Origin: Syntrophobacterales bacterium
GTDB lineage: Bacteria; Desulfobacterota; Desulfobaccia; Desulfobaccales; 0-14-0-80-60-11
NCBI GenBank assembly: GCA_023512475.1
Contig: JAILZL010000001.1
Location: forward strand, 75,516-139,515
DNA: 64,000 nucleotides
Direction: 5' to 3'
The notes under the pieces were generated by a model. It searched no databases, had not been told where the DNA came from, and saw only the letters and a program-made list of their open reading frames with translations. This document shows positions 47,073 through 61,347 of the stretch, one piece after another. Position 1 is the stretch's first letter. Each line of letters opens with the position of its first letter. The position numbers and the translations under genes are program-made.

Positions 47073-47106
47073 AAAAAAACGGCCGCCTCCGGAAGGGAGG
47101 CGGCCG
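47073..47106 (-). terminator. Intrinsic terminator of the hydrogenase operon
   Basis: A perfect 11-bp stem: CGGCCGCCTCC (47080-47090), loop of five, GGAGGCGGCCG (47096-47106). On the minus strand it is followed by seven T (47079-47073). It lies 113 bases after the selenocysteine-extended mvhA stop. Confidence 0.88.
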
Positions 47107-47218: not shown

Positions 47219-48721
47219 CTACCGGGCCCGGGTGATCAGCCGGCCCCGGCTGTCGAAGACCTCGATTTCCACGGTGCGACCGCCATCCAGGCGGTGGGTG
47301 GCGCAGCTCAGTCACGGGTCGTAGCAGCGCACCGCCATCTCCACCCGGTTTAAGGCCTCTTCGGTGACCACCCCGTGTCGGATGACGCTCTGGGCCGCCT
47401 GGCGGATGCTCATGTTCATGGGCGCCACATTGTGGGTGGTGCCCACAATAAGGTTGGCCCGGGTGATGAGGCCGTTTTTGTCGGTGGAGTAGTCGTGGAT
47501 CAGGGTGCCCCGGGGGGCCTCCACGCAGCCCACCCCCCGCCCGGCCTTGGGCTCCACCGGGTTGCGCACGTGGGGGTCGGTGATCTCCGGGTCCTCCAGG
47601 TGCTCCACCACCTTCTCGCAGGCGTAGAGGAGCTCGATGAGCCGGGCCCAGTGATAGAGCATGGTGGACTGGGCCGGCCGCCCGAAGCGGCTGCGGAACT
47701 CCTCCAGCTCCGCCTGGGCCAGGGGCGTGCTGATTTTGTCGCAGACATTGAGGCGGGCCAGGGTGTTCACCCGGTAGATGCCTTTGGGGTTCTCCGGATC
47801 CATGGAGAAGCCCTCGCCCCATACCCGGGCGTAGGGGAACTTGGAGTAGGCCCAGTCTTCCACGTGCTCCCCCAGGTAATAGGCATACTCCAGGTGGCTG
47901 AAGTCCTGGTAGGAGCCATCCGGCCTCATGAGGCGCAGCACCCCCTCAAAGAAGTTGAGGGAGCCGTCTGTGGGGTCCACGGTGCCCAGAAAGCCGGTGG
48001 TGATCTCCCCCAGGCGCACGGTGGCGTCGTCCAGGTGGGCAAAGACGTTCTTTTTGGCCCAGTTTAGGCAGAATATGGCGAAGTCCAGCTGCTCCCGGCT
48101 CTTTTCCAGGAGCTCCTGGCGCTCCGCCTCGGTCATGGGCTTGGAGAAGCCCCCGGGCACCACCGCCACCGGGTGGATGACCTTGCCGGCGAACTTTTCG
48201 ATCATCATCTGGCCGGCCTGGCGCATCTTCACCACCCGGGCGGCCAGCTCCGGCGCGGCCTTCACCACCCCCAGGACGTTCCGGACGGAATAGTCCGCCC
48301 CGGGCCCCAGGACAAAGTCGGGGGCCGCCAGGAAGAAGAAGTGGAGGATCTTGTCATTGATCTGGGCCATCACCAGCATGAGCTCCCGGAGCTTTTTGCC
48401 GGCGGGGGGGATTTTGGCCCCGAAGCAGCCATCCACCGCCTTGTTGGAGGCGGTGTGGTGCATCCAGGGGCAGATGCCGCAGATGCGGTTGACGATGCGG
48501 GGCACCTCCTCCGCCGGGCGCCCTTCGATGAATTTCTCAAAGCCCCGGAGGGCCATGATGTTGAGGCGGGTGTCCGCCACGTTGCCCTCGTCGTCCAGCA
48601 CGATGGCGATGCGGGCGTGGCCTTCGATGCGGGTGATGGGCTGGATGTTGATCACCCGCCGGCCGCTCCCGGCGCCGTGGGTAAAGGCCTGATCAGCCGT
48701 GGCTTCGATGGTCTGTGCCAT
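47219..48721 (-). CDS. mvhA: [NiFeSe] hydrogenase large subunit MvhA, selenoprotein (Sec470)
   Basis: The catalytic subunit of a group 3c-type cytoplasmic hydrogenase, 500 residues if the TGA at 47312-47314 is read as selenocysteine. The N-terminal nickel motif is RICGICPWMHH. At the C-terminus the frame reads AVRCYDP, TGA, LSCATHRLDGG, so the TGA replaces the first Cys of the DPCxxCxxH nickel motif. It then continues 24 residues (VEIEVFDSRGRLITRAR) to TAG, matching the usual MvhA tail. Stopping at the TGA would remove two of four Ni-Fe ligands. A hairpin at 47279-47295 follows the TGA. GAGGAAGAC precedes ATG 48721. Whether the tail is cleaved by a maturation protease is unknown; none is encoded here. 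Confidence 0.93.
47279..47295 (-). other. Candidate bacterial SECIS hairpin of mvhA
   Basis: Starting 16 bases after the in-frame TGA, ACCGCC, loop TGGAT, GGCGGT form a perfect 6-bp hairpin. Loop and distance are identical to those in mvhD while the stem differs at compensated positions. Bacterial SECIS elements lie inside the coding region just after UGA and bind SelB. Confidence 0.8.
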
Positions 48722-48844: not shown

Positions 48845-49786
48845 CTACTTCCCTGCCGCCCGGCGCTTCAGGAGGCCGTGGGCGCCGGAGAACTCCAGCA
48901 CGGTGGCCCGGTCGGTGATGGAGTGCACGTCGATGCGGTTGCTGGCCAGGGCGTTCAGGTAGTCCAGCAGCTGGTTGCCGTCCTTGCGCACCGGCCCATA
49001 GCAGCCCTGGCAGGGCACCCGGGCCCGGATACACTGGGGCGCCTCGCCGCTCAGGCCGGCGCAGCCCGCCCGGGTGACGGGCCCCAGACACTGGAAGCCC
49101 TGCTCCAGCAGGCAGTGCATCTCACTTAAGGGTTTCGCCGGGTCGTAGTGGGCGTTATGGGTGAAGCGGTGCAGTTTCTTCAGTTTGCCCTTCCCCAGCC
49201 GGATGGTGGGGCAGGTGTCGCACACACTCTTGTCCGGCAGCCGGGGCTCCCGGCCCTCCAGGAGGGCGGTGAGGGCCTCGGCGATGAGATCCGGATGCGG
49301 CGGGCAGCCCTGAAGATAAATGTCCACCTGGATCTTCTCATCCAGGGCGTACGTGCGGTCCAGAATGGGGGGCAGCACTGCATCCGCCGGCGGGTCATGA
49401 GGATCGGTGCTCTCGCTGGTGCGGTAGTAGCGCTCCAGGAGCGCGGGATTGTCAAACAGGTTCATGAGGGCGGGGATCCCGCCGTGGGTGGCGCAGGTCC
49501 CCAGGGCGATGATGATCTCGCAGCTGCGGCGCATGGCCTGGGCCACCTCCAGGTGCTCCTGGTTGCGGATGCCCCCGGAGATGAGGCCCACCGTGGCCTG
49601 GGGGATCTCCAGGTGGTGCAGGTCCCCCTCCCCCCTCTGCCCGAAGTACTTGTGATCCATGAGCACCGGGATGTGGACGAACTCCAGGTGCGGCAGCACG
49701 GTGAGCAGGGTCTCCCCCAGGTTGAGGATGGCCACCTCGCAGCCGGAACAGGAATTGAGCCATTCTGAGGCGACTTTGACCGGCAT
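48845..49786 (-). CDS. mvhG: Hydrogenase small subunit MvhG
   Basis: A 313-residue electron-transfer subunit carrying Fe-S clusters between the Ni-Fe site and MvhD. The proximal cluster ligands are in LNSCSGCEVAILN, IALGTCATHGGIP and LQGCPPHPDLI. Further Cys (CDTCPTI, CLEQGFQCLGPVTRAGC, VPCQGCYGP) provide two more clusters. There is no Tat signal, which agrees with a cytoplasmic group 3 enzyme. GGAGGG before ATG 49786; nine bases after the FrhB-like stop. mvhA follows after 123 bases. Confidence 0.94.
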   Translation of the reverse strand: MPVKVASEWLNSCSGCEVAILNLGETLLTVLPHLEFVHIPVLMDHKYFGQRGEGDLHHLEIPQATVGLISGGIRNQEHLEVAQAMRRSCEIIIALGTCATHGGIPALMNLFDNPALLERYYRTSESTDPHDPPADAVLPPILDRTYALDEKIQVDIYLQGCPPHPDLIAEALTALLEGREPRLPDKSVCDTCPTIRLGKGKLKKLHRFTHNAHYDPAKPLSEMHCLLEQGFQCLGPVTRAGCAGLSGEAPQCIRARVPCQGCYGPVRKDGNQLLDYLNALASNRIDVHSITDRATVLEFSGAHGLLKRRAAGK

Positions 49787-49795
49787 GGGACCCTC

Positions 49796-50917
49796 CTAAC
49801 CCTTCACCGTGACGGCGCGGCGCTCCAGTTCGGCATGCTTGGCCGCCGCCCGCGCCTTCTTTTTGTCCGACCACTCCAGGACCACATTGAGGGCCTGATG
49901 CGCCATCTGCTGGCTCCCCACCTCCACGTCCACCCCCCGGGCGTCGGCCAGCACCGCCCGGCCCAGGGGCGAACGCACAATCACGGTGGTCCAGCCCTCC
50001 GGCGCGCCGATGCCGCCAAAGGACAGGTCGGCGTATTCGGCGGCGTAGTCGTCGCAGTACTGGCAGGCGTAGCGCTTCATGAACTCCAGCTTCTCCAAGG
50101 GGATGGTGCGCAGCTCCCCGGACTTCAGATGCACCATCAGGGTTTCCTTGACATTGATCTTGCGCACCTCCTCCCAGCGGAACTCCCCCAGCTCCATGAG
50201 CCGGCGGCGCTCGGCCTCGCCGAAGTGGAAGTTGCCGGTGCAGAAGAGGCCCAGATGCAGAGTGATGGAGCCCGCAGGCACCACCCCCAGCACCTCCATG
50301 CGCCTCAAGGCGTTGATCTGGCAGGGGGTGCCCACAAAGGCCACCCGGTGGAGGCGCTTTTTGGCCACCTCCCCCAGCTCCATGATGGAAGGGGAAAAGG
50401 TGCTGGTCTCCAGGGAGGCATAGACCCGGGAGAAATGGGTCATGCCGTGGATGGTGTCGAAGTGGAAGCCGGCGGCGTCCAGGATCTCCTCCCGGGTGAT
50501 GGCCAGCCAGGGCCAGCGGCGGAATTCCCCCACCTTGCGGCTGACAATGGCCCCGTCAATGCGGCCCAGATCAAAGAGATGCAGCAGGAGGGCGGTGACC
50601 ACGCCGCCGTCGGTGCCCCGGGCCCGCACCCCGGGATCCATGGCCCGGGCCACCTGGGTGCTGAGGATGCGGCCCATGGGCGCACTCCAGGACACCAGGC
50701 GCTTGGTCTCCTCGTCCAGCTCGTGGATCTCCGGACAGATGGAATAACACAGGCCGCACTCAATGCACTTTTCAATGTCCTTGTAGCGGGGGCGGCCGTC
50801 CTCCCCCAGCTCCAGGGCGCCGTAGTTGATGGCGGTGCAGAAGGTGACGCAGCCGCCGCAGTGGTGGCACAGCCCCGGCTTCTGCACCTCCTGGATGAGG
50901 TGGAAAAAGGTCTTCAT
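49796..50917 (-). CDS. FrhB/FdhB-like iron-sulfur flavoprotein in the hydrogenase operon
   Basis: A 373-residue member of the coenzyme F420 hydrogenase/dehydrogenase beta family. Two ferredoxin-type motifs at the N-terminus (CHHCGGCVTFC and KCIECGLCYSICPE) are followed by the FrhB core. That core has TDGGVVTALLLHL, AFVGTPCQINALRRM, GLFCTGNF and RYACQYCDDYAAEYADLSFGG. The family oxidises or reduces F420 or passes electrons through FAD and Fe-S. It sits between mvhD and mvhG where methanogen operons have nothing, so it may be a branch point for electrons. Whether this organism makes F420 is unknown. GGGGAGGAGG precedes ATG 50917, 17 bases after the extended mvhD stop. The longer frame overlapping mvhD is rejected. 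Confidence 0.9.
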   Translation of the reverse strand: MKTFFHLIQEVQKPGLCHHCGGCVTFCTAINYGALELGEDGRPRYKDIEKCIECGLCYSICPEIHELDEETKRLVSWSAPMGRILSTQVARAMDPGVRARGTDGGVVTALLLHLFDLGRIDGAIVSRKVGEFRRWPWLAITREEILDAAGFHFDTIHGMTHFSRVYASLETSTFSPSIMELGEVAKKRLHRVAFVGTPCQINALRRMEVLGVVPAGSITLHLGLFCTGNFHFGEAERRRLMELGEFRWEEVRKINVKETLMVHLKSGELRTIPLEKLEFMKRYACQYCDDYAAEYADLSFGGIGAPEGWTTVIVRSPLGRAVLADARGVDVEVGSQQMAHQALNVVLEWSDKKKARAAAKHAELERRAVTVKG

Positions 50918-50934: not shown

Positions 50935-51378
50935 TCAGCCGGCGGCCTCCGCCAGCTCCGCCTTCCGCGGTCTGAGCGGATTGGGCCCCAACGCCCGGAT
51001 CTTTTCCACAAACTGGGTCACCACCTGGGCAAACCGGGGGGCTTCGGCGGAGGACACCCACTCCAGAGCATAACGCTCCGGGTCGAGGTTCAGGGTTTCC
51101 AGGACCAGCCGGGTGGCTTCGTATCGGGACAGGGCTTTGTAATTACCATCCAGGTAATGACAGTCACCCAGATGTCACCCCATCACCAGGACGCCGTCCA
51201 CCCCCCGGCTCAACGCCTTCACCACCAGCTCCGGATGCACCATGCCGGAGCAGTTCACCCGGATCACCCGGAGATTCGGCGGATACTGCAGGCGGGACAC
51301 CCCCGCCAGATCCGCCCCCGCATACGCACACCAGTTGCACAAAAAGCCTAAGACCACCGGTTCAAAGGTCTCTTCCAC
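50935..51378 (-). CDS. mvhD: MvhD, hydrogenase-heterodisulfide reductase linker, selenoprotein (Sec68)
   Basis: MvhD carries a [2Fe-2S] cluster that joins MvhAG to HdrA. Read with TGA 51175-51177 as selenocysteine the protein has 147 residues, the normal length. Before it come GFLCNWCAYAGADLAG and VNCSGMVHPELVVKAL. The TGA sits in VLVMG-U-HLGDCHYLDGN, exactly at the conserved Cys of the family motif GCHxGDCHY. The tail continues with KALSRYEATRLVLETLNL and stops at 50935. A GTG start at 51378 follows AAGGAGG; the ATG at 51435 has no SD. A hairpin at 51142-51158 follows the TGA. Plain ORF calling leaves only a truncated fragment. Confidence 0.93.
51142..51158 (-). other. Candidate bacterial SECIS hairpin of mvhD
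   Basis: ATTACC, loop TGGAT, GGTAAT: a perfect 6-bp stem starting 16 bases after the TGA. Spacing and loop equal those of mvhA, while the stem differs by paired substitutions. Confidence 0.8.
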
Positions 51379-51492: not shown

Positions 51493-54400
51493 CTACAATG
51501 CCTCCAGCACGGCCTCCACCTGGGCTTCCAGTTGGGGGAGGGTGAAGCCGTGCACGGTGATGCCCTCTTTGGGGCAGGTGGCTTCACAGAGGCCGCAGCC
51601 CTTGCAGAGGGCCTTGTCGCTCACCACCCGGCGGTGGCGGCGGCCGTCGTCCCCCTGGTAGTCTTCCAGTTTCAGGGCCAGGTAAGGGCAGACGTCCACG
51701 CACAGGCCGCAGCCGTCGCAGTGGGCGGTGACCTCGCTCTTGATGGCGTCCAGTTCCATGGCGCTCTTGGCCAGGATGATGCCCGCCCGGGTGACCGCCG
51801 CCTTGGCCTGGCTCACGGCCTCCTCCAGGGGTTTGGGGTAATGGCACAAGCCGGCCAGAAAGACCCCGTCCACGGTGGAATCCACCGGCCTCAGCTTGGG
51901 ATGGGCCTCGGTGAGGAAGCCGTCTTCATTGACGCCGCATTTGAAGAGCTCCACCAGGCCGCTGGTGTCATGGGGCCGGATGCCGCTGGCCAGGACCAGG
52001 TAGTCCGGGGAGAGCCTGACCGGCAGCCCCAGGATGGGGTCGGTGACCGTGACCTCAAGGCGGCCGGCGCTCTCCGTCACCCGGGGTTTGTTCTCCAGGG
52101 TGTATGGGATAAAGATCACCCCCAGCTCCCGGGCCTTGGTGGAGAGATTCTCCCTCAGGCCGTAGGTGCGCAGATCCCGGTAGAGGATGTACACCGGCTT
52201 CTCCGGGTCCAGCTCCTTCAGGCGGATGGCGTTTTCCACCGAGTGGGTGCAGCAGGTGCGGCTGCAGTACATCCGGCCGGGCTCCCGGGAGCCCACGCAC
52301 TGGATAAAGACCACCGGCCCCGCGGCCTTGAGGTCTGCGGGTTTCTCCCTGAGGAGGGCGTCCAGCTCCAGGGCGGTGAGCACCCGGGGATGCTCGCCGT
52401 AGAGGTATTCCTCGGGCTTGTATTCCTGGCCGCCGATGGCCAGCACCGCCACCCCGAAGGAGACGCGGCGGCTCTCCCCGGCCACGCTGATCTCGCCGGT
52501 GAAATTCCCCACCGAGCCGGAGACGCTTTTCAGCTCCGCCTGCTTGAGGACCTGGATTTTGGGGTGGTTCTCCACCTGGGCGATGAGGCCGGTGAGGAAA
52601 GGCCGCACCTCCTCGCCCTTCCAGGTGCGGTTCAGAAGCCAGGCGTTGCCCCCCAGCTTGTCCCCTTTCTCCACCAGGGTGACGGCGTAGCCCTGCTCCG
52701 CCAGCTCCAGGGCCGCGGTCAGGCCGGCCACGCCGCCGCCCACCACCAGGGCCTGCTGCACCACCGGCACCGCCGCCCGGGCGAGGGGGTAGTCCAGGGC
52801 CGCCTTGGCCACCGCCATGCGCACCTGGTCCTTGGCCTTTCTGGTGGCATAGGCGGGGTTGTGCTGGTGCACCCAGGAGCCCTGGTTGCGGATGTTGGCC
52901 ATCTCCACCAGATAGGGGTTGAGGCCCGCCTCCCGCAGGGTGTCCTGGAACAGGGCCTCGTGGGTGCGGGGGGTGCAGGCGGCGATGACGATGCGGTTCA
53001 GATTCAGCTCCCGGATCCTGGCGGCGATGAGGTCCTGGGTGTCCGTGGAGCAGGTGAAGAGATTGTTCTCCACCAGGACCACCCGGGGCAGGGTGCGGGC
53101 GTAGTCCGCCAGCTCCTGGACGTCAATGACCCCGGCGATGTTGATGCCGCAGGAGCAGATGAAGACCCCGATACGGGGCTCCTCCTTGGAGACATCCCGC
53201 TCCGGGGGGTAGGTCTTCTCCCGGGTGAGGGTGCCCCGGGCCATGACCAGGGTCCGGGCCGCCTCGCCCGCGGCGGCGGAGGCGTCCATGACCGCCCGGG
53301 GGATGGACTTGGGGGACTCGGCGGCGCCGCAGACATAGATGCCGGGCCGGGAGGTGGCCACCGGGTTGAAGCCGGTGGTCTCCACGAAGCGGAAGGGGTT
53401 CAGATCCACCCCCACGGTCGTCGCCAGCTCCAGGGCCCCGTCCTGGGCCTCCAGTCCCACCGAGAGCACCGCCAGGTCGAAGTCCTCCTGCCGGGTGCGG
53501 CCGTCTTCGGCCACGTATTCCACCACCACCCCCCGGCTTAAGGGCCCGGGGAGGATACTGTGGGGCCGGGCCCGCACGAAGCGCACCCCCTTGGCCTGGG
53601 CGTTGACGTAGTAGCGCTCGAACTCCTTGTTGTGGGCCCTGAGATCCATGTAAAAGATCACGGTCTCGGCACCGGGCACATGGTCCGCGGTGACCAGGGC
53701 CTGTTTCACCGCGTACATGCAGCACACCGTGGAGCAGTAGGGGTTGCCCCGGCCGTCCTGGCTGCGGGAGCCCACGCACTGGATCCAGGCCACCTTGTGG
53801 GGCTCCTGGTGATCCGAAGGCCGGATGAGGTGCCCCTGGAAGGGCCCGCCGGCGGACAGCAGCCGCTCATACTCCAGGCCGGTGACCACATCGGGGATGC
53901 GCCCGTAGCCGTAGGGGGCCAGCACCCGGGGGTCAAAGGGGCGGTAGCCCGGGGCCAGGATGAGGGCCCCCACCTTCAGGGAAAGTTCTTCCCCGGGATC
54001 CGCGAAGTTGATGGCGCCGGTGGGGCAGAACTTCTCGCAGGCCTTGCACTTGCCCTTGAGGAAATAGAGGCAGGCCTCCGGATCGATGGCGTATTTCAAG
54101 GGGACGGTCTGGCTGTAGTAGATGTAGATGGCCCGGCGCTTGCCCACCCCCAGGTTGTAATCGTCGGGGACCTTCTTGGGGCATTTTTCGGCGCACAGGC
54201 CGCAGGCGATGCATTTGTCCGGATCCACATAGCGGGGCGCTTGCCGGAGGGTGACGGTGAAATTGCCGGGGTGGCCCTGAATGCCGGTGACCGTGGACAG
54301 CGTGTGCAGCTCAATGTTCAAGTGCCGACCGCACTCGACCAACTTGGGCGACAGAATTCACATGGCGCAGTCGTTGGTCGGGTAGGTCTTGTCCAGCTGG

Positions 54401-54537
54401 GCCATCTTGCCGCCGATGCCGGCTTTGGCCTCCACCAAGTGGACATAATAGCCGGAGTCGGCCAGGTCCAGGGCGGCCTGGATGCCGGCGATGCCGCCGC
54501 CCACCACCATGACCGAACCCACCACATTTCCTGTCAT
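51493..54537 (-). CDS. hdrA: HdrA-type flavin-bifurcating subunit, selenoprotein (Sec60), long form
   Basis: HdrA bifurcates electrons at FAD between ferredoxin and a second acceptor. With TGA 54358-54360 read as selenocysteine this is 1014 residues, against about 650 in methanogens. Residues 1-450: a thioredoxin-reductase-like module ([39 protein letters not shown]) with ferredoxin motifs ([12 protein letters not shown]). Residues 450-1014: a second, complete HdrA unit ([49 protein letters not shown]) ending in [12 protein letters not shown] and [12 protein letters not shown]. The TGA is at the Cys of the NDCxxC motif. GGGAGGAC stands before ATG 54537, and an HTH-encoding frame runs in from upstream without a stop. 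hdrBC are absent from the cluster. Confidence 0.92.
54319..54346 (-). other. Candidate SECIS hairpin of hdrA
   Basis: CAAGT and ACTTG (5 bp), an internal loop, then CGA and TCG (3 bp) around loop GTGCGG. The apical loop starts 23 bases after the TGA, versus 22 in mvhA and mvhD. Weaker than the other two. Confidence 0.5.
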
Positions 54538-54801
54538 GTTGTCCTCCCGGGATGCTGTGGCCCCCAGCCGTGCGGCCGGACGGGGTTGTGCCTCCCGCCC
54601 CCCGCCCACCTGCCGGGGGGCCAGGGCCTCCGGCTCCAGGTGGAATTCCTGGCAGAGGCGGGCGAAGTCTTCCGGGGTGAAGACCAGGCCCTTGCCGGGT
54701 CCGGGGCGGCAGGGCAGGCGGCCGCTCTTCACCCAGTTGCGGATGGTGTTGCGGTGGACACCGATGGCTTTAGCCAAGGCCACGAGGTGGACCACAAACA
54801 T
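54358..54801 (-). CDS. Helix-turn-helix reading frame, in frame with and running into hdrA
   Basis: From ATG 54801 (AAAGGAG seven bases upstream) the frame encodes a MerR/excisionase-like [23 protein letters not shown], then [18 protein letters not shown] and [16 protein letters not shown]. It enters a Gly/Pro/Arg linker of about 30 residues and, with no stop codon, the hdrA start at 54537. The end given is the UGA (147 residues if not decoded). With UGA decoded as Sec the product would be an 1102-residue HTH-HdrA fusion. The strong internal SD before 54537 suggests that HdrA is also made alone. Either the HTH is a true regulatory extension, or the two frames are joined by loss of a stop. The repeats at 54843-54881 are candidate targets. 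Confidence 0.7.
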
Positions 54802-54842
54802 GGCGGCGCTCCTTTCCGGCCTTCCCTGGGCGGGAGGCTGAT

Positions 54843-54881
54843 TGTGCTTTTTGTGCATATAAAAAGATGTGCATTTTGTGC
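54843..54881. promoter_or_regulatory. Paired 14-bp repeats, candidate operator of the HTH-hdrA promoter
   Basis: TGTGCTTTTTGTGC (54843-54856) and TGTGCATTTTGTGC (54868-54881) differ at one base and are 25 bases apart. Each contains two TGTGC units nine bases apart. They lie directly downstream of the -10 box on the minus strand, where a bound protein would block transcription. Confidence 0.65.
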
Positions 54882-54940: not shown

Positions 54941-54972
54941 AAAAAAAGGGCCGGGGGAGTGCCCCCCGGCCC
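54941..54972 (-). terminator. Intrinsic terminator after nfnB
   Basis: GGGCCGGGGG (54948-54957), five-base loop, CCCCCGGCCC (54963-54972): a perfect 10-bp stem. On the minus strand seven T follow (54947-54941). It separates nfn from the hydrogenase promoter. Confidence 0.88.
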
Positions 54973-54994
54973 CGCTGGCCCCATCCGTTGAGGC

Positions 54995-56410
54995 TTACCA
55001 GCCGTAGGTCAGAAAGTCATGGATGGAGTTGCTGGCCAGGCGGCCGGCCCCCATGGCCAGGATCACCGTGGCCGCACCGGTGACGATGTCGCCGCCGGCC
55101 CACACCCGGGGCTTCATGGTCTTGCCGGTCTTGGGATCGGCGATGATATAGCCCCACTTGTTCAGGGCCAGGCCGGGGGTGGACTTGGTGAGGAGCGGGT
55201 TGGCCCCGGAGCCGATGGCGATGACCGCGGTGTCGATCTCCACCAGGAATTCCGAGCCCGGAATGGGCACAGGGCGGCGCCGGCCGGAGGCGTCGGGTTC
55301 CCCCAGCTCCATCCTCAGGCACTCCACCCCGGTGAGGTAGCCGTCCTCATTGCCCAGAAAGCGCACCGGGTTGGTGAGGAAGAGGAATTCCACCCCCTCC
55401 TCCTCGGCGTGGTGGATCTCCGCCGCCCGGGCCGGCATTTCGGCATGGGAGCGCCGGTAGATGATGTAGGAGTGCTCCGCGCCCATGCGCAGGGCGGTGC
55501 GGGCCGCGTCCATGGCCACGTTGCCGCCGCCGAAGGTGGCCACGTTTTTCCCCCGGACCAGGGGCGTATCGTAGTTGGGGAAGTCGTAGGCCCGCATCAG
55601 ATTGGAGCGGGTGAGGTACTCATTGGCAGAATAGACCCCGATGTAGTGCTCCCCGGGGATGTTGAGGAACATGGGGAGCCCGGCCCCCACTCCCAGAAAG
55701 ACGGCGTCGAAGCGCTCCAGAAGCTCGTCCACCGTCTCGGAGCGGCCGATGACCGCGTTCACCTCGATTTTGACCCCCAGGCGCTCCAGGTAGCGGCATT
55801 CGTGGGCCACGATCTCCTTGGGGAGACGGAACTCCGGGATGCCGTAGATGAGCACCCCGCCGGGGGCATGCAGGGCCTCGAAGATGGTGACCTCGTGGCC
55901 CTTGAGGATGAGGTCGCCGGCCACGGTGAGCCCGGCGGGCCCGGAGCCCACCACCGCCACCTTCTTGCCGGTGGGCTCCGCCTTGGGGGGCAGGATGTCC
56001 CGGCCGTGCAGACGCTGGTAGTCGGCGGCGAAGCGCTCCAGGTTGCCGATGGCCACCGGCTCGTCCTTCTTGCCCAGGATGCACAGGCCCTCGCACTGGA
56101 TCTCCTGGGGGCAGACCCGGCCGCACACCGCGGGCAGGGAGTTCTTCTCCCAGAGCCTGCGGATGGCCGCCTCGAAGTCCCCTTCCTTGATGAACTTGAT
56201 GAAGCCGGGGATGTCGATCTCCACCGGGCAGCCCTGGACGCAGCGGGGATCCTTGCACTGGATGCAGCGCTCCGCCTCCTTCATGGCCAGCTCGGGGGTA
56301 TAGCCCAGAGGGACCTCGTCGAAGTTACGGCGCCGGACCTGGCTATCCTGCTCCGGCATCTTCTGCCGGGGGATTTTCTCTTTTTTCGGGGCCTTGACTT
56401 CTTCAGACAT
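54995..56410 (-). CDS. nfnB: NfnB/GltD-like subunit of NADH-dependent ferredoxin:NADP+ oxidoreductase
   Basis: A 471-residue flavoprotein with the N-terminal Fe-S domain (CIQCKDPRCVQGCPV and CGRVCPQEIQCEGLC). Two nucleotide-binding Rossmann parts follow (VAVVGSGPAGLTVAGDLI for FAD, VATFGGGNVAMDAARTALRMG for NADP). The C-terminal FAD segment is VWAGGDIVTGAATVILAMGAGR. Such proteins are glutamate synthase small subunits, SudA or NfnB. The directly upstream NfnA-like gene (25 bases apart) and the absence of gltB point to NfnB, which bifurcates from NADPH to ferredoxin and NAD+. Sulfide dehydrogenase SudAB is an alternative. Confidence 0.9.
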   Translation of the reverse strand: MSEEVKAPKKEKIPRQKMPEQDSQVRRRNFDEVPLGYTPELAMKEAERCIQCKDPRCVQGCPVEIDIPGFIKFIKEGDFEAAIRRLWEKNSLPAVCGRVCPQEIQCEGLCILGKKDEPVAIGNLERFAADYQRLHGRDILPPKAEPTGKKVAVVGSGPAGLTVAGDLILKGHEVTIFEALHAPGGVLIYGIPEFRLPKEIVAHECRYLERLGVKIEVNAVIGRSETVDELLERFDAVFLGVGAGLPMFLNIPGEHYIGVYSANEYLTRSNLMRAYDFPNYDTPLVRGKNVATFGGGNVAMDAARTALRMGAEHSYIIYRRSHAEMPARAAEIHHAEEEGVEFLFLTNPVRFLGNEDGYLTGVECLRMELGEPDASGRRRPVPIPGSEFLVEIDTAVIAIGSGANPLLTKSTPGLALNKWGYIIADPKTGKTMKPRVWAGGDIVTGAATVILAMGAGRLASNSIHDFLTYGW

Positions 56411-56435
56411 GCGTCATTCCTCCCTCTCGTCTGTG

Positions 56436-57290
56436 TCAGCTTTTGCAGGAGCAGCCCTGCCCCAGGCTGGCTTTAAAGCGGTCGTAGGAGAGTTTCTCTT
56501 CGGGCAGATACGAGCGCAGGCGCAGGGTCAGCTCGTCGAAGTCCACGGCGTGGCCGTCGAACTCGGGGCCGTCCACGCAGGCGAACTGCATCCTGCCCCC
56601 CACCTGCACCCGGCAGCAGCCGCACATGCCGGTGCCGTCCAGCATGATGGGGTTGAGGCTCACCAGGGTCTTGACGCCGAACTCCTTGGTCATCTGGCTG
56701 CAGAACTTCATCATGGGCACCGGGCCGATGCACACCGCCAGGCCGATGTCCTTGTTCTCCGTGAGGACCTTTTTCAGCACGTCGGTGACAAAGCCCTTGT
56801 GGCCATAGGTGCCGTCGTCGGTGCAGATGTGGAGCTCATGGGAGGCGGCCCGCATCTTGTCCTCCAGGATCAGGAGGTCCTTGGTCCGGGCGCCGATGAT
56901 GGCGATCACATGGTTGCCCAGCTGTTTCAGCCCCCGGGTGATGGGGTGCAGCACCGCGATGCCGGTGCCGCCGCCGACGCACACCACCTTGCCCACCTTT
57001 TCCAGATGGGTGGGCTGTCCCAGGGGGCCGATGACATCGAGATACGAATCCCCCACTTTCAGGGTCTTGAAGAGGGCGGTGCTTTTGCCCACCACGGCGT
57101 AGATAACGTTGATGAGACCCCGCTCCGGGTCGGTGTCGGCCATGGTCAGGGGAATGCGCTCCCCCGTCTCGTTGGCCCGCAGGATGACGAACTGGCCCGG
57201 CTTGGCCTTCTGGGCGATCTTGGGGGCCCTGACCCAGTTGCTGATGATGGTGCCCTGGGCCATTTCCTCGCGTTCCACGATTTCAAACAT
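56436..57290 (-). CDS. nfnA: NfnA/SudB-like ferredoxin-NADP+ reductase subunit
   Basis: A 284-residue subunit with an FAD-binding barrel (motif RIPLTMADTD), an NAD-binding part (VVCVGGGTGIAVLHPI, CIGPVPMMKFCSQMT) and a C-terminal [2Fe-2S] site in GTGMCGCCRVQVGGRMQFAC. The chain ends GCSCKS. In NfnAB this subunit binds NAD(H) and the 2Fe cluster. It is the first gene of the minus-strand pair. A CRP/FNR-like palindrome lies 122 bases upstream, so redox or energy-state control is plausible. Confidence 0.91.
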   Translation of the reverse strand: MFEIVEREEMAQGTIISNWVRAPKIAQKAKPGQFVILRANETGERIPLTMADTDPERGLINVIYAVVGKSTALFKTLKVGDSYLDVIGPLGQPTHLEKVGKVVCVGGGTGIAVLHPITRGLKQLGNHVIAIIGARTKDLLILEDKMRAASHELHICTDDGTYGHKGFVTDVLKKVLTENKDIGLAVCIGPVPMMKFCSQMTKEFGVKTLVSLNPIMLDGTGMCGCCRVQVGGRMQFACVDGPEFDGHAVDFDELTLRLRSYLPEEKLSYDRFKASLGQGCSCKS

Positions 57291-57605: not shown

Positions 57606-59390
57606 TTAGAACAGCCCGATGACCTTGCCGGTCTTCACATCCACGTCCACACGGCGGAAGGCCGGGTCGGAGGAGGTGCCGGGCATGAGGGAGATGGCGC
57701 CGCACACCGGGCAGATGAACTTGGCGCCGCTGAAGACCAGGAAGTCCCGCACCGGCAGCCGCCAGCCCTTGGGCACGCCCTTCTTGGTGGGGTCGTGGCT
57801 GAGGCTCAGGTGGGTCTTCACCATCATGGTGGCGTATTCGTTGTATTTGGGATCCTTCTCGAAGCGCTCCGCCTTGGCCACGGCCTCGGGGAGGAAGTCC
57901 ACGCCGTCGGCCCCGTACACTTCCTTGGCGATGACTTCCACCCGCTTCCGGAGGGGCAGCTCATTGGGATAGAGGAACTTGAAGTCGTTCTTCTCCTTGC
58001 AGGCATCCATGACCGCGTCGGCGAACTCCAGGGCGCCTTCGCCGCCGAACTGCCAGTGCTTGGACACCGCCACCCGGGCCCCTTCGGCCTCGCACACCCG
58101 CCGGATGAGGTCGTGCTCCTCCTTGGAGTCGAAGTGGAAGGCGTTGATGCACACCACCGGGTTGATGCCCGCCTTTTTGATGGTGCGGATATGATGCACC
58201 GCGTTGGCGACGCCGTCCTCCAGCCACTTGAAGGTCTGGGGAGTGGCCTCGAAGTATTCCTTGGGGATGGGTTTGCCGGGCGGGCAGGGGAGCGCGCCGG
58301 CGTTGACGCCGTGATGCTTGAGGCCCCGCACCGTGGTGGTGAGCACCGCCACATGGGGCTTGAGGCCGCTGAAACGGCACTTCACGTTCCAGAACTTCTC
58401 AAAGCCGATGTCGGCGCCGAAACCGGACTCGGTGACATGGTAGTCAAAGAGCTTCAGGCCGATCTGGTCGGCGATGATGGAGCTTTGGCCCACCGCGATG
58501 TTGGCGAAGGGGCCGGCGTGAATCAGGACCGGCTGCTTCTCCACGGTCTGCATGAGGGTGGGGTTGATGGAGGGCACCATCCAGGCGGTCATGGCGTTGC
58601 CCACTTCCAGGTCCCCGGTGGTGATGGGATTGCCCCGCTTGTCATAGCACACGGTGATCTGGTTGAGGCGCTCCTTCATGTCCGCCAGGGAGGTGGTAAT
58701 GGAGAGGATGGCCATGACCTCCGAGGACACCGCGATGCCGAACTTGGAGGCCATCATGAAGCCGTCCATCTTGCCGCCGATGCCGATGATGATGTTGCGC
58801 AGCGCCTGGGCGCAGAAGTCGATGATCCAGCCCATTTCGAAGTTCTTGGGGTCGATGTCCAGGCGCTTGAGGTTGCGCTTCGCCAGCTGCTCATCGGTGT
58901 AATTGAACTCGTGCTGCAGGCGGGAGGTGGCGGCCACCATGGCCAGGTTGTGGGCGTTCATGATGTTGTTGATATCGCCGGTGAGCCCCAGGGAGAACTC
59001 GGTCATGGGGATCAGAAGCGAAATGCCGCCGCCCGCCGCGGTGCCCTTGATGTTCATGGTGGGGCCGCCGGAAGGCTGCCGGAGGGCGCCGCCCACATTG
59101 ACGCCCCGCTTGCCCAGACCCTCGATCAACCCCAGGGAGGTGGTGGATTTGCCCTCCCCCAGAGGGGTGGGGGTGATGGCGGTGACGTCGATGTAGTAGC
59201 CGTCGGGCTTGTCCTTCAGGCGCTCCAGGCATTTCAGGTAGTCAATCCGACCGATCTTCTGCCCATAGGGAATGCGCTCGTCCTTGGGGATGCCCAGCAT
59301 CTCGCACATCTCGTCGAAGGGGATCATCTCCGCTTCGGCGATTTCGGCGATCTGCCAGTCCTTCATGGTTACCGGATCATACTTCGCCAT
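57606..59390 (-). CDS. fhs: Formate-tetrahydrofolate ligase
   Basis: A 594-residue enzyme that activates formate with ATP and tetrahydrofolate to 10-formyl-THF, a step of the Wood-Ljungdahl methyl branch. The ATP site is in [16 protein letters not shown]. Other family segments are [20 protein letters not shown] split over residues 116-135, [30 protein letters not shown] and [12 protein letters not shown]. Length is within the normal 550-630 range. AAGGAGG precedes ATG 59390, with a strong promoter at 59525-59553. It has its own terminator, so it is monocistronic, and it is divergent from metV-metF. Confidence 0.96.
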
Positions 59391-59746: not shown

Positions 59747-60418
59747 ATGGTTGTCGCGGAATCGAAACCCGTCACAGAAATTCTGGACATGATCAAGGAG
59801 TGCAAGAAGGTGGTGGTGGCCGGCTGCAAAGGCTGCGTCACGGTCTGCAACTCCGGCGGCGAGAAGGAAGTGGGCATCCTGGCCTCCGAGCTGCGTCTGG
59901 CCCGCAAGGTGGCCGGCGACGACCTGGAGGTCCTGGAGTACACCTGCGAACGCCAGTGCGACCCGGAGTACATCGAGCCCCTGGACGACCTGGTGAAGGA
60001 CGTGGACGCGGTGGTCTCCATCGCCTGCAGCGTGGGGCCCCAGTACATCGCCGCCCGCTATCCCTTTCTGCCGGTGTTTCCGGGACTGAACACGGTCTTC
60101 ATCGGCGGCGCGGCGGAACACGGCGTCTGGAAGGAATATTGCCAGGCCTGCGGCCACTGTATCATCGGGGATTTCGGCGGGCTGTGTCCGGTGACCCGCT
60201 GCGCCAAGTCCCTGATGAACGGCCCCTGCGGCGGCTCCTCCGGGGGCAAGTGCGAAGTGGGCAAAGGCACCATCGACTGCATCTGGCACCTCATCTATGA
60301 ACGGCTGAAAAACCTGGGACAGCTCTCCAGGCTGGAAAACCCCTGGGGTTTCAAGAACTGGTCCACCAGCCGGGACGGCGGGCCCCGCACCATGATCCGG
60401 GAGGAGTTACGGAAATGA
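59747..60418 (+). CDS. metV: MetV, zinc/Fe-S partner subunit of methylene-THF reductase
   Basis: A 223-residue protein of the methylenetetrahydrofolate reductase C-terminal (MetV) family. It is the partner of MetF in acetogens and related anaerobes. Cysteine motifs are GCKGCVTVCNSGGEKE, CERQCDP, CQACGHCIIGDFGGLCPVTRC and NGPCGGSSGGKCEV, enough for zinc and Fe-S binding. AGGAGG stands upstream of ATG 59747. The stop overlaps the metF start (ATGA), so the two are made together. MetVF reduces methylene-THF to methyl-THF; the physiological electron partner is uncertain and may involve other subunits. Confidence 0.94.
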   Translation: MVVAESKPVTEILDMIKECKKVVVAGCKGCVTVCNSGGEKEVGILASELRLARKVAGDDLEVLEYTCERQCDPEYIEPLDDLVKDVDAVVSIACSVGPQYIAARYPFLPVFPGLNTVFIGGAAEHGVWKEYCQACGHCIIGDFGGLCPVTRCAKSLMNGPCGGSSGGKCEVGKGTIDCIWHLIYERLKNLGQLSRLENPWGFKNWSTSRDGGPRTMIREELRK

Positions 60419-61347
60419 CACTGACGGCCGGGAGCAAACTGGAAAAGATTCTGAAAAGCGGCCAAAAGGCCGTCACCTGCGAATGCGGCCCGCCCCGGGG
60501 CGCCGACGCCGAGCATTTCCGCCACAAGGCCTCCTTCCTCAAGGACTGCGCCGACGCGGTGAACGTCACCGACAACCAGACCGCGGTGGTGCGCTTCTGC
60601 TCCCTGGCGGCCTGCCGCATCCTGATGGACATGGGCATCGAGCCGGTGATGCAGATGGTCACCCGGGACATGAACCGCATCGCCCTGCAGAGCAACGTCC
60701 TGGGCGCCGCGGCCCTGGGGATCAAAAACCTCCTGTGCCTCACCGGCGACCACAACTCCTTCGGCGATCATCCCCAGGCCAAAAACGTCCATGACCTGGA
60801 CTCGGTGCAGCTTCTGGCCGCGGTCAAGGCCATGCGGGATGACGGCAAGATGATCAGCGGCACCGAGGTGGTGGGCCGCCCCCAGATGTTTCTGGGCGCG
60901 GCGGTGAACCCCTTCGCCGACCCCTTCGAGTTCCGGGTGGTGCGCATGGCCAAAAAGATCAAGGCCGGGGCCCAGTTCGTCCAGACCCAGTGCATCTATG
61001 ACATGGAGCGCTTCGCCAAGTTCATGCAGATGGCCAATGACATGGGCCTGACGGAACAGTGTTACGTCCTGGCCGGGGTCACCCCCTTCAAAAGCGTGGG
61101 CATGGCCAACTACATGAAAAAATTCGTCCCCGGCATGCTGGTGCCCGACTCCTACATCCAGCGCCTCAAGGGAGTGCCCAAAGAGAAGCAGGCGGAGGAG
61201 GGCATCAAGATCGCAGTGGAGCAGATCCAGCAGCTGTTGGAGATGAAGGGCGTGGCCGGCATCCACCTCATGGCCATCGAATGGGAGGAGAAGGCGCCGG
61301 AGATCCTCAAGGCCGCCGGGCTCCTGCCCCGGCCTCAGGTGGATTAA
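60415..61347 (+). CDS. metF: Methylenetetrahydrofolate reductase MetF
   Basis: A 310-residue flavin TIM-barrel enzyme. Family segments are VTCECGPPRGADAEHF with the catalytic Glu, VNVTDNQTAVVRFCSL, LLCLTGDHNSFGDHP, GAQFVQTQCIYDMERF and YVLAGVTPFKS. The short, MetV-linked form lacks the C-terminal regulatory region of eukaryotic MTHFR. It overlaps metV by four bases and is followed by a terminator at 61404, which ends the metVF unit before cooS. Confidence 0.94.
   Translation: MTLTAGSKLEKILKSGQKAVTCECGPPRGADAEHFRHKASFLKDCADAVNVTDNQTAVVRFCSLAACRILMDMGIEPVMQMVTRDMNRIALQSNVLGAAALGIKNLLCLTGDHNSFGDHPQAKNVHDLDSVQLLAAVKAMRDDGKMISGTEVVGRPQMFLGAAVNPFADPFEFRVVRMAKKIKAGAQFVQTQCIYDMERFAKFMQMANDMGLTEQCYVLAGVTPFKSVGMANYMKKFVPGMLVPDSYIQRLKGVPKEKQAEEGIKIAVEQIQQLLEMKGVAGIHLMAIEWEEKAPEILKAAGLLPRPQVD

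Follow-up and report, generated by a model that had tools for sequence, protein, structure and literature searches.

Because the disulfide that serves methanogens as acceptor is, to our knowledge, absent from sulfate reducers and syntrophs, the energetics by which these organisms link H2, ferredoxin and the Wood–Ljungdahl pathway are an open question. The 64,000-nucleotide stretch analyzed here (the window) carries an operon in which the gene of a FrhB-like flavoprotein lies among those of a Mvh-type hydrogenase and HdrA. A preliminary description had placed this protein between mvhD and mvhG with no HdrBC, and had suggested that the complex passes electrons through it to a high-potential acceptor other than a heterodisulfide. 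What FrhB does in such an operon, and with which redox partner, is considered below.

The operon HdrA–MvhD–FrhB–MvhG–MvhA forms one minus-strand unit at about 54.9–47.2 kb of the window (Table 1). The FrhB frame lies exactly where it had been placed, and the two ferredoxin motifs attributed to it are present as an N-terminal CxxCxxCx3C repeated twice (C17–C27 and C51–C61). MvhA contains the L1 motif ICGICPWMH and the L2 motif DPULSCATH, the latter with selenocysteine (Sec) replacing Cys. Together with MvhG, MvhD and HdrA, these are among the components expected of a Mvh–Hdr electron-bifurcating hydrogenase. Three Sec codons are thus predicted within one operon, one in-frame TGA each in HdrA, MvhD and MvhA, and SelB is encoded in the host genome with a score above cut-off. 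DsrA also scored above its cut-off, and the host is therefore probably a sulfate reducer. Strong terminator-like hairpins flank the unit; the scan of the window returned 21 such sites against 9.2 expected in shuffles.

Table 1. Features of the FrhB operon and its neighbors (window positions)
Feature	Positions	Strand	Basis or remark
MvhA, hydrogenase large subunit	47219..48721	-	best NCBIfam match VhuA, score under its cut-off
MvhA in-frame TGA (Sec, U470)	47314-47312	-	within DPULSCATH
MvhG, hydrogenase small subunit	48845..49786	-	profile match
FrhB-like iron–sulfur flavoprotein, 373 aa	49796..50917	-	ATG at 50917, stop at 49796; profile, sequence and fold matches
MvhD/FlpD	50935..51378	-	PF02662, 9.8e-53; GTG start
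MvhD in-frame TGA (Sec, U68)	51177-51175	-	read from the frame
HdrA, whole frame from longest ATG	54858..51493	-	upstream of MvhD
HdrA proper	51493..54537	-	FAD half, then N-domain, second FAD half, C-terminal ferredoxin domain
HdrA in-frame TGA (Sec, U167)	54360-54358	-	in first FAD half, Cys197 equivalent
HTH_17 domain and linker	54538..54801	-	stop-free frame into HdrA; longest ATG at 54858
Terminator-like hairpin, 3' of mvhA	47080..47106	-	hairpin scan
Terminator-like hairpin, 5' of HTH-hdrA start	54947..54973	-	hairpin scan; parts operon from NfnAB-like genes
NfnB/GltA-like subunit	54995..56410	-	upstream, probably a separate unit
NfnA-like subunit	56436..57290	-	profile search
Formate–tetrahydrofolate ligase (Fhs)	57606..59390	-	named by reading the sequence
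MetV	59747..60418	+	PF12225
MetF	60415..61347	+	named by reading the sequence

The protein belongs to the FrhB/FdhB family, as it exceeded the gathering scores of both PF04432 (4.6e-35, 121.2 bits; cut-off 23.3) and PF04422 (9e-14, 51.8 bits; cut-off 22). Against TIGR03289, the equivalog model for the coenzyme F420 hydrogenase beta subunit, it scored 131.7 bits, below the cut-off of 331.5. Fold searches with an AF2 model (pLDDT 69.5, with the ferredoxin domain and an insert poorly modeled) returned the F420 subunits of Frh, CODH and Fwd as the closest structures (Z 29.9–25.9; 29.9 for Frh and 28.6 for 8riu), followed by plant HCAR at 23.1; residues 1–79, which form the ferredoxin domain and are modeled poorly, hardly entered into these matches. 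The family assignment is borne out by the predicted fold. The nearest named relatives are from an uncultured bacterium (94% identity) and from Desulfobacca or deltaproteobacterial assemblies (72–78%). In a phylum sample of 297 genomes, 54 gave a FrhB match at a threshold of 1e-20. Close relatives (at least 44% identity) occur in 21 of the 54, the window's own genome included, and the best matches in the remaining genomes with a match reach at most 35%. A wider scan yielded 188 relatives; the best 80 of the 188 were used, some of them overlapping the phylum-sample genomes, and their labels are mostly deltaproteobacterial or Desulfobacterota.

Bacterial matches to PF04432 are no proof of F420 use. 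F420 biosynthesis genes were sought in the host genome, which is 99.99% complete, with the CofD and CofH models. The CofD profile (PF01933) found no match there. The CofH model found two, both under the cut-off, and these genes were rejected as F420 genes since one passes the cut-off for MqnE and the other that for MqnC, enzymes of the futalosine route to menaquinone. PF01933 was matched in 5 of 20 further genomes with FrhB. Four of these matches, all but that of G276, were classified, one as YvcK and three as GAK-type, and none of the four scored high enough for CofD. With no CofD match, and with CofH-like genes that are MqnE and MqnC, F420 is unlikely to occur in the host.

The substrate pocket was compared between 81 bacterial FrhB rows and four archaeal F420 chains, from Frh (6qgr, 9r51), CODH (8riu) and Fwd (8rja). 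The frame that holds FAD and the inner [4Fe–4S] cluster (cluster ligands and FAD loops) is preserved across the bacterial rows, and C199, C226, C285, C288 and the GG of the FAD loop are identical across all four archaeal chains. Twelve positions are at least 95% fixed in the 81 rows, yet absent from the four archaeal chains; one of them, Y171, falls in an insert that the archaeal chains lack. G302 aligns with the Ser of a GSV or GSI loop in all four. We take the GSV loop to be S209–V210 of Methanothermobacter marburgensis FrhB, the numbering being inferred rather than aligned, and PMC3591093 places S209–V210 next to the F420 ring. In the loop that surrounds the FAD ring (described in PMC3930138), G228 replaces an archaeal Glu; T102 takes the place of the archaeal Gln preceding the GG motif. 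The IGKGK turn is altered to V-KE-x-L in most bacterial rows shown. The turn of 8rja is close to the bacterial form and that of 8riu is without the first lysine, so that this motif alone does not exclude F420.

At the F420 site, the bacterial rows thus depart from the archaeal structures. The F420 pocket of FrhB looks rebuilt, with some of the 12 positions at the described site. Together with the missing F420 genes, the changed pocket points to a partner other than F420. Continued use of F420, obtained from other organisms or by an unrecognized route, would agree with the family, the fold and the many preserved family landmarks; given the altered site and the genome searches above, in the host and in the further FrhB genomes, we regard it as very unlikely. 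The pocket changes are present in all context classes of FrhB loci described below, so the redox partner is probably one and the same in all of them. No NAD(P) site was identified in FrhB, and its sequence gives no positive sign of NAD(P).

The minimum Mvh–Hdr set comprises MvhADG and HdrABC (PMC6085437). The reported lack of HdrBC holds for the operon, where neither was recognized among the open frames, but not for the genome. The HdrB-type CCG domain has 12 matches in the host genome. Contig C54 encodes HdrC and HdrB with HdrA, MvhD, MetV and MetF, and contig C58 carries HdrC–HdrB–HdrA, HdrC being named by sequence reading in both cases.

Among the best 80 of the 188 relatives, the order MvhD–FrhB–MvhG was found in 26 (some ended by contig ends), so the order seen in the window is not due to chance. 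No HdrB or HdrD-like gene was recognized nearby in these 26. Two cultured species, Desulfosarcina widdelii (L137) and Desulfocicer vacuolatum (L155), are among the carriers of the operon. The sequence HdrD-like–FrhB–MvhG occurs in 19 of the best 80, and HdrD-like–FrhB without MvhGA in view in 3. Other contexts in this set are MetV–MetF–FrhB (12 loci, 8 with HdrB), direct HdrA–FrhB (8 loci, 6 with HdrB) and a divergent HdrA/MvhD–FrhB arrangement (9 loci); the rest are one MvhD–FrhB locus ended by the contig and two at contig edges. HdrA or MvhD is visible in 77 of the best 80, and the remaining three run into contig ends. FrhB therefore accompanies mainly HdrA, rather than the hydrogenase, and does not stand in opposition to HdrBC. 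It is present without an adjoining HdrA in G277 and G258. The chromosome of G277 holds an HdrA–MvhD–MvhGA set elsewhere from FrhB (L058).

That FrhB stands in for HdrBC, as had been supposed, does not hold as a rule. HdrB shares a gene run with FrhB in 14 of the best 80 of the 188, and two genomes (G204, G248) combine FrhB, HdrA, HdrD-like, HdrB-like and MvhDGA in a single run. In the FrhB tree, where 18 of 83 inner branches were drawn open and distant rows sit on long branches, the plain hydrogenase type requires 12 changes and the HdrD-like type 11, of which 6 each are forced by well-supported branches. These counts suggest that the HdrD-like gene comes and goes while FrhB remains. The MetVF type requires only 2 changes, and its FrhBs group apart.

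The converse set consisted of 20 Mvh loci without a FrhB neighbor, selected from more; the genomes of G214 and G277 hold FrhB elsewhere. An HdrD-like gene directly precedes HdrA in 6 of the 20, indicating that an Hdr-type module can serve as an alternative to FrhB. HdrA pieces are separated by a NfnB-like one in 2, only MvhG–MvhA is shown in 4, and four (L211–L214) have HdrA–MvhD–MvhGA with no recognized third module. The last 4 are mixed, with an HdrC-like gene in L202 and HdrD-like genes in other arrangements in L203, L215 and L216. Mean HdrA and MvhA identities were 62.0 and 65.9 in loci with FrhB (n = 33 of 38 parsed) and 53.9 and 66.3 in those without (n = 13 of 20). The idea that HdrA identity tracks FrhB was not relied on, as the 13 pairs were entered by hand, 7 loci without FrhB were dropped and the second HdrA match of L205 was used.

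The repeated company of Hdr-type modules bears on the direction in which FrhB might work. As a donor arm like ElpB or FdhB, it would feed electrons from a reduced carrier into HdrA beside H2, and the acceptor would be an HdrBC or HdrD-like module encoded elsewhere, with DsrC as one conceivable substrate. The Elp–Hdr structure and activity (PMC12350162) set a precedent. HdrBC on C54 and C58, DsrA in the genome, the 14 loci with HdrB and 19 with HdrD-like and MvhG among the best 80 of the 188, and the combined runs of G204 and G248 would all fit. On the other hand, the 26 window-type loci of the best 80 have neither HdrB nor HdrD-like recognized nearby, and FrhB adjoins MvhGA here, whereas in Elp the hydrogenase is replaced. 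We consider a donor arm possible, but on the unlikely side.

HdrA itself may offer room for more than one partner. It is fused from two halves, both with an HA4-type cluster motif. The first half, an FAD domain 1 with an inserted ferredoxin, alone has the Cys197 site, and the second alone has the N-domain. Such complementary halves have been proposed to act as a pseudo-heterodimer by Chadwick et al. (PMC9012536). Through two non-equivalent outlets, one HdrA could work with FrhB and with an HdrBC or HdrD-like module at once, which would explain their coexistence. The HdrA Sec falls at the position of Cys197 of M. wolfeii HdrA, a ligand of the inter-subunit cluster. This position is a TGA codon in 38 of the 44 matches from FrhB loci and in 8 of the 11 from other loci.

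A HTH_17/MerR-like domain lies upstream of HdrA in the same frame. Among 48 FrhB loci that are of hydrogenase or HdrD-like type, the HdrA start was readable in 31; the domain is in frame without a stop in 27 of the 31, in frame with stops in 1 and missing in 3, and the truncated L105 is also without it. It was found in none of the readable starts of the Mvh loci without adjacent FrhB (10 of 20 readable), the MetVF type (2 of 12), the HdrA–FrhB type (5 of 8) or the divergent type (2 of 9). The gene possibly encodes a HTH–HdrA fusion with an internal HdrA start. A purine-rich stretch precedes the inner ATG, so a shorter HdrA may be made too. A search of open-access literature, covering titles and abstract openings, returned no report of a HTH–HdrA fusion.

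The upstream neighbors were also examined. The NfnAB-like pair (54995–57290) directly precedes the FrhB operon, both in the window and in two other genomes (G044, G236), and was not recognized in the more distant relatives checked. On contig C54 of the host, a NfnB/GltA-like segment lies inside HdrA in a single long open frame (L069, about 3.6–8.0 kb); similar insertions are described for ANME-1 (PMC9012536). The Fhs neighbor recurs in two genomes of the genus. MetV and MetF are divergently encoded about 5 kb upstream of hdrA, and the window MetF is 60–64% identical (best segment) to the FrhB-adjacent MetF of the 12 MetVF-type relatives. With the other MetF of the host, on C54, it shares only 35% identity.

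These identities, and the MetV–MetF–FrhB order in 12 of the best 80 of the 188, would suit a hub that serves methylene-tetrahydrofolate reduction, in which MvhD would bind MetVF instead of MvhGA, as in the MetVF–FrhB relatives. The separate grouping of MetVF-type FrhBs in the tree, the opposite strand of the window MetVF and the presence of MvhGA within the operon argue against it, and we think it quite improbable. A broader reading combines several of these features: HdrA hubs of Desulfobacterota lacking F420 would carry a FrhB re-specified for a two-electron carrier and interchangeable enzymes (hydrogenase or methylene-tetrahydrofolate reductase), and in the hydrogenase type a DNA-binding HTH–HdrA would report the complex's redox state to its own operon. 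Taken as a whole, this is speculative and rather unlikely.

Our preferred reading, which we judge to be evenly balanced between right and wrong, is a [NiFeSe] hydrogenase–MvhD–HdrA complex with FrhB as a built-in third redox module for a soluble partner X that is neither F420 nor a heterodisulfide. Cytoplasmic [NiFeSe] MvhAG would be wired via MvhD to the fused two-half HdrA, which should bifurcate or confurcate electrons. Bifurcation needs three couples. MvhA would supply that of H2 and HdrA that of ferredoxin; for the remaining one, the window operon offers FrhB as its sole candidate. Electrons would move between an HdrA cluster, the two ferredoxin clusters of FrhB, its inner [4Fe–4S] cluster and FAD, which would exchange two electrons with X. 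H2 would thereby be coupled to reduced ferredoxin and reduced X, by bifurcation during H2 uptake for the Wood–Ljungdahl pathway and by confurcation during H2 release. We infer that the complex forms, and in the same way the docking site of FrhB, the direction of flow and the nature of X, which is most likely a mid-potential hydride carrier, possibly NAD(P)H. A potential of about -320 mV, like that of NAD(P), would suit both directions, with HydABC hydrogenases as a parallel case.

FrhB is thus best read, from its sequence and setting, as a redox module of HdrA hubs for a non-F420 two-electron carrier, alongside H2 and ferredoxin. Of the original suggestion of a non-heterodisulfide acceptor, the fixed place of FrhB in the operon is borne out, and the changed pocket and the missing F420 genes favor another partner; the sequence fits a high-potential acceptor and a donor as in Elp–Hdr equally. 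Counter to the model, FrhB lacks an adjoining HdrA in G277 and G258, L211–L214 have no recognized third module, and HdrBC encoded elsewhere in the genome could join the window HdrA.

FrhB-type subunits paired with HdrA are already known from ANME archaea. What seems to be new is a FrhB clade, without F420 and with an altered pocket, in [NiFeSe] hydrogenase–HdrA operons across sulfate-reducing bacteria; the same kind of literature search, of titles and abstract openings in open access, returned no FrhB in HdrA–hydrogenase operons of sulfate reducers. FrhB, which keeps steady company with HdrA in many relatives among sulfate reducers and has an altered substrate pocket, offers a concrete protein for finding the missing carrier.

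Among known systems, the MvhAGD–HdrABC complex of methanogens (5odc/5odh) shares MvhA, MvhG, MvhD and HdrA homologs and the expected wiring. The window operon differs in having FrhB and no HdrBC, a HdrA fused from two halves, and Sec in MvhA, MvhD and HdrA. In the Moorella-type MetFV–MvhD–HdrABC (PMC6085437) the MvhD–HdrA hub is common to both, and a related set lies on contig C54 of the host; there, MetVF takes the place of the hydrogenase, HdrBC is present and FrhB is not. The HdrA/HdrL loci of Desulfobacterium autotrophicum HRM2 can be likened to the window by gene name alone: in a figure legend of PMC2702500, HdrA–MvhD loci V–VIII hold a "formate dehydrogenase subunit B" gene, in two of them with no FdhA following.

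The HdrA clusters of ANME-1 and ANME-2d (PMC9012536) pair HdrA with FdhB/FrhB, some without FdhA (FdhB-only clusters in ANME-1), and share the fused HdrA with complementary Cys197 site and N-domain. Those archaea use F420, and the HdrA halves of the window stand in swapped order. In Elp–Hdr and Fdh–Hdr (8rvu, 7bkb; PMC12350162), a FrhB-family subunit with FAD and [4Fe–4S] likewise exchanges electrons with HdrA/MvhD, and ElpB feeds Hdr. In those complexes the subunit takes the place of the hydrogenase, with F420H2 as its substrate, whereas the window FrhB adjoins the hydrogenase, has ferredoxin clusters at its N terminus and shows changes in the F420 pocket; no ElpA (FdhA without MopB) was found among the operon's open frames. 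The closest solved structures by sequence are the CODH and Fwd F420 subunits of ethane-oxidizing archaea (8riu, 8rja; PMC11493965). They share with the window FrhB an N-terminal two-cluster ferredoxin domain joined to an F420-reductase domain, but belong to other host enzymes, have measured F420 reduction, carry Ser at G302 and lack the insert.
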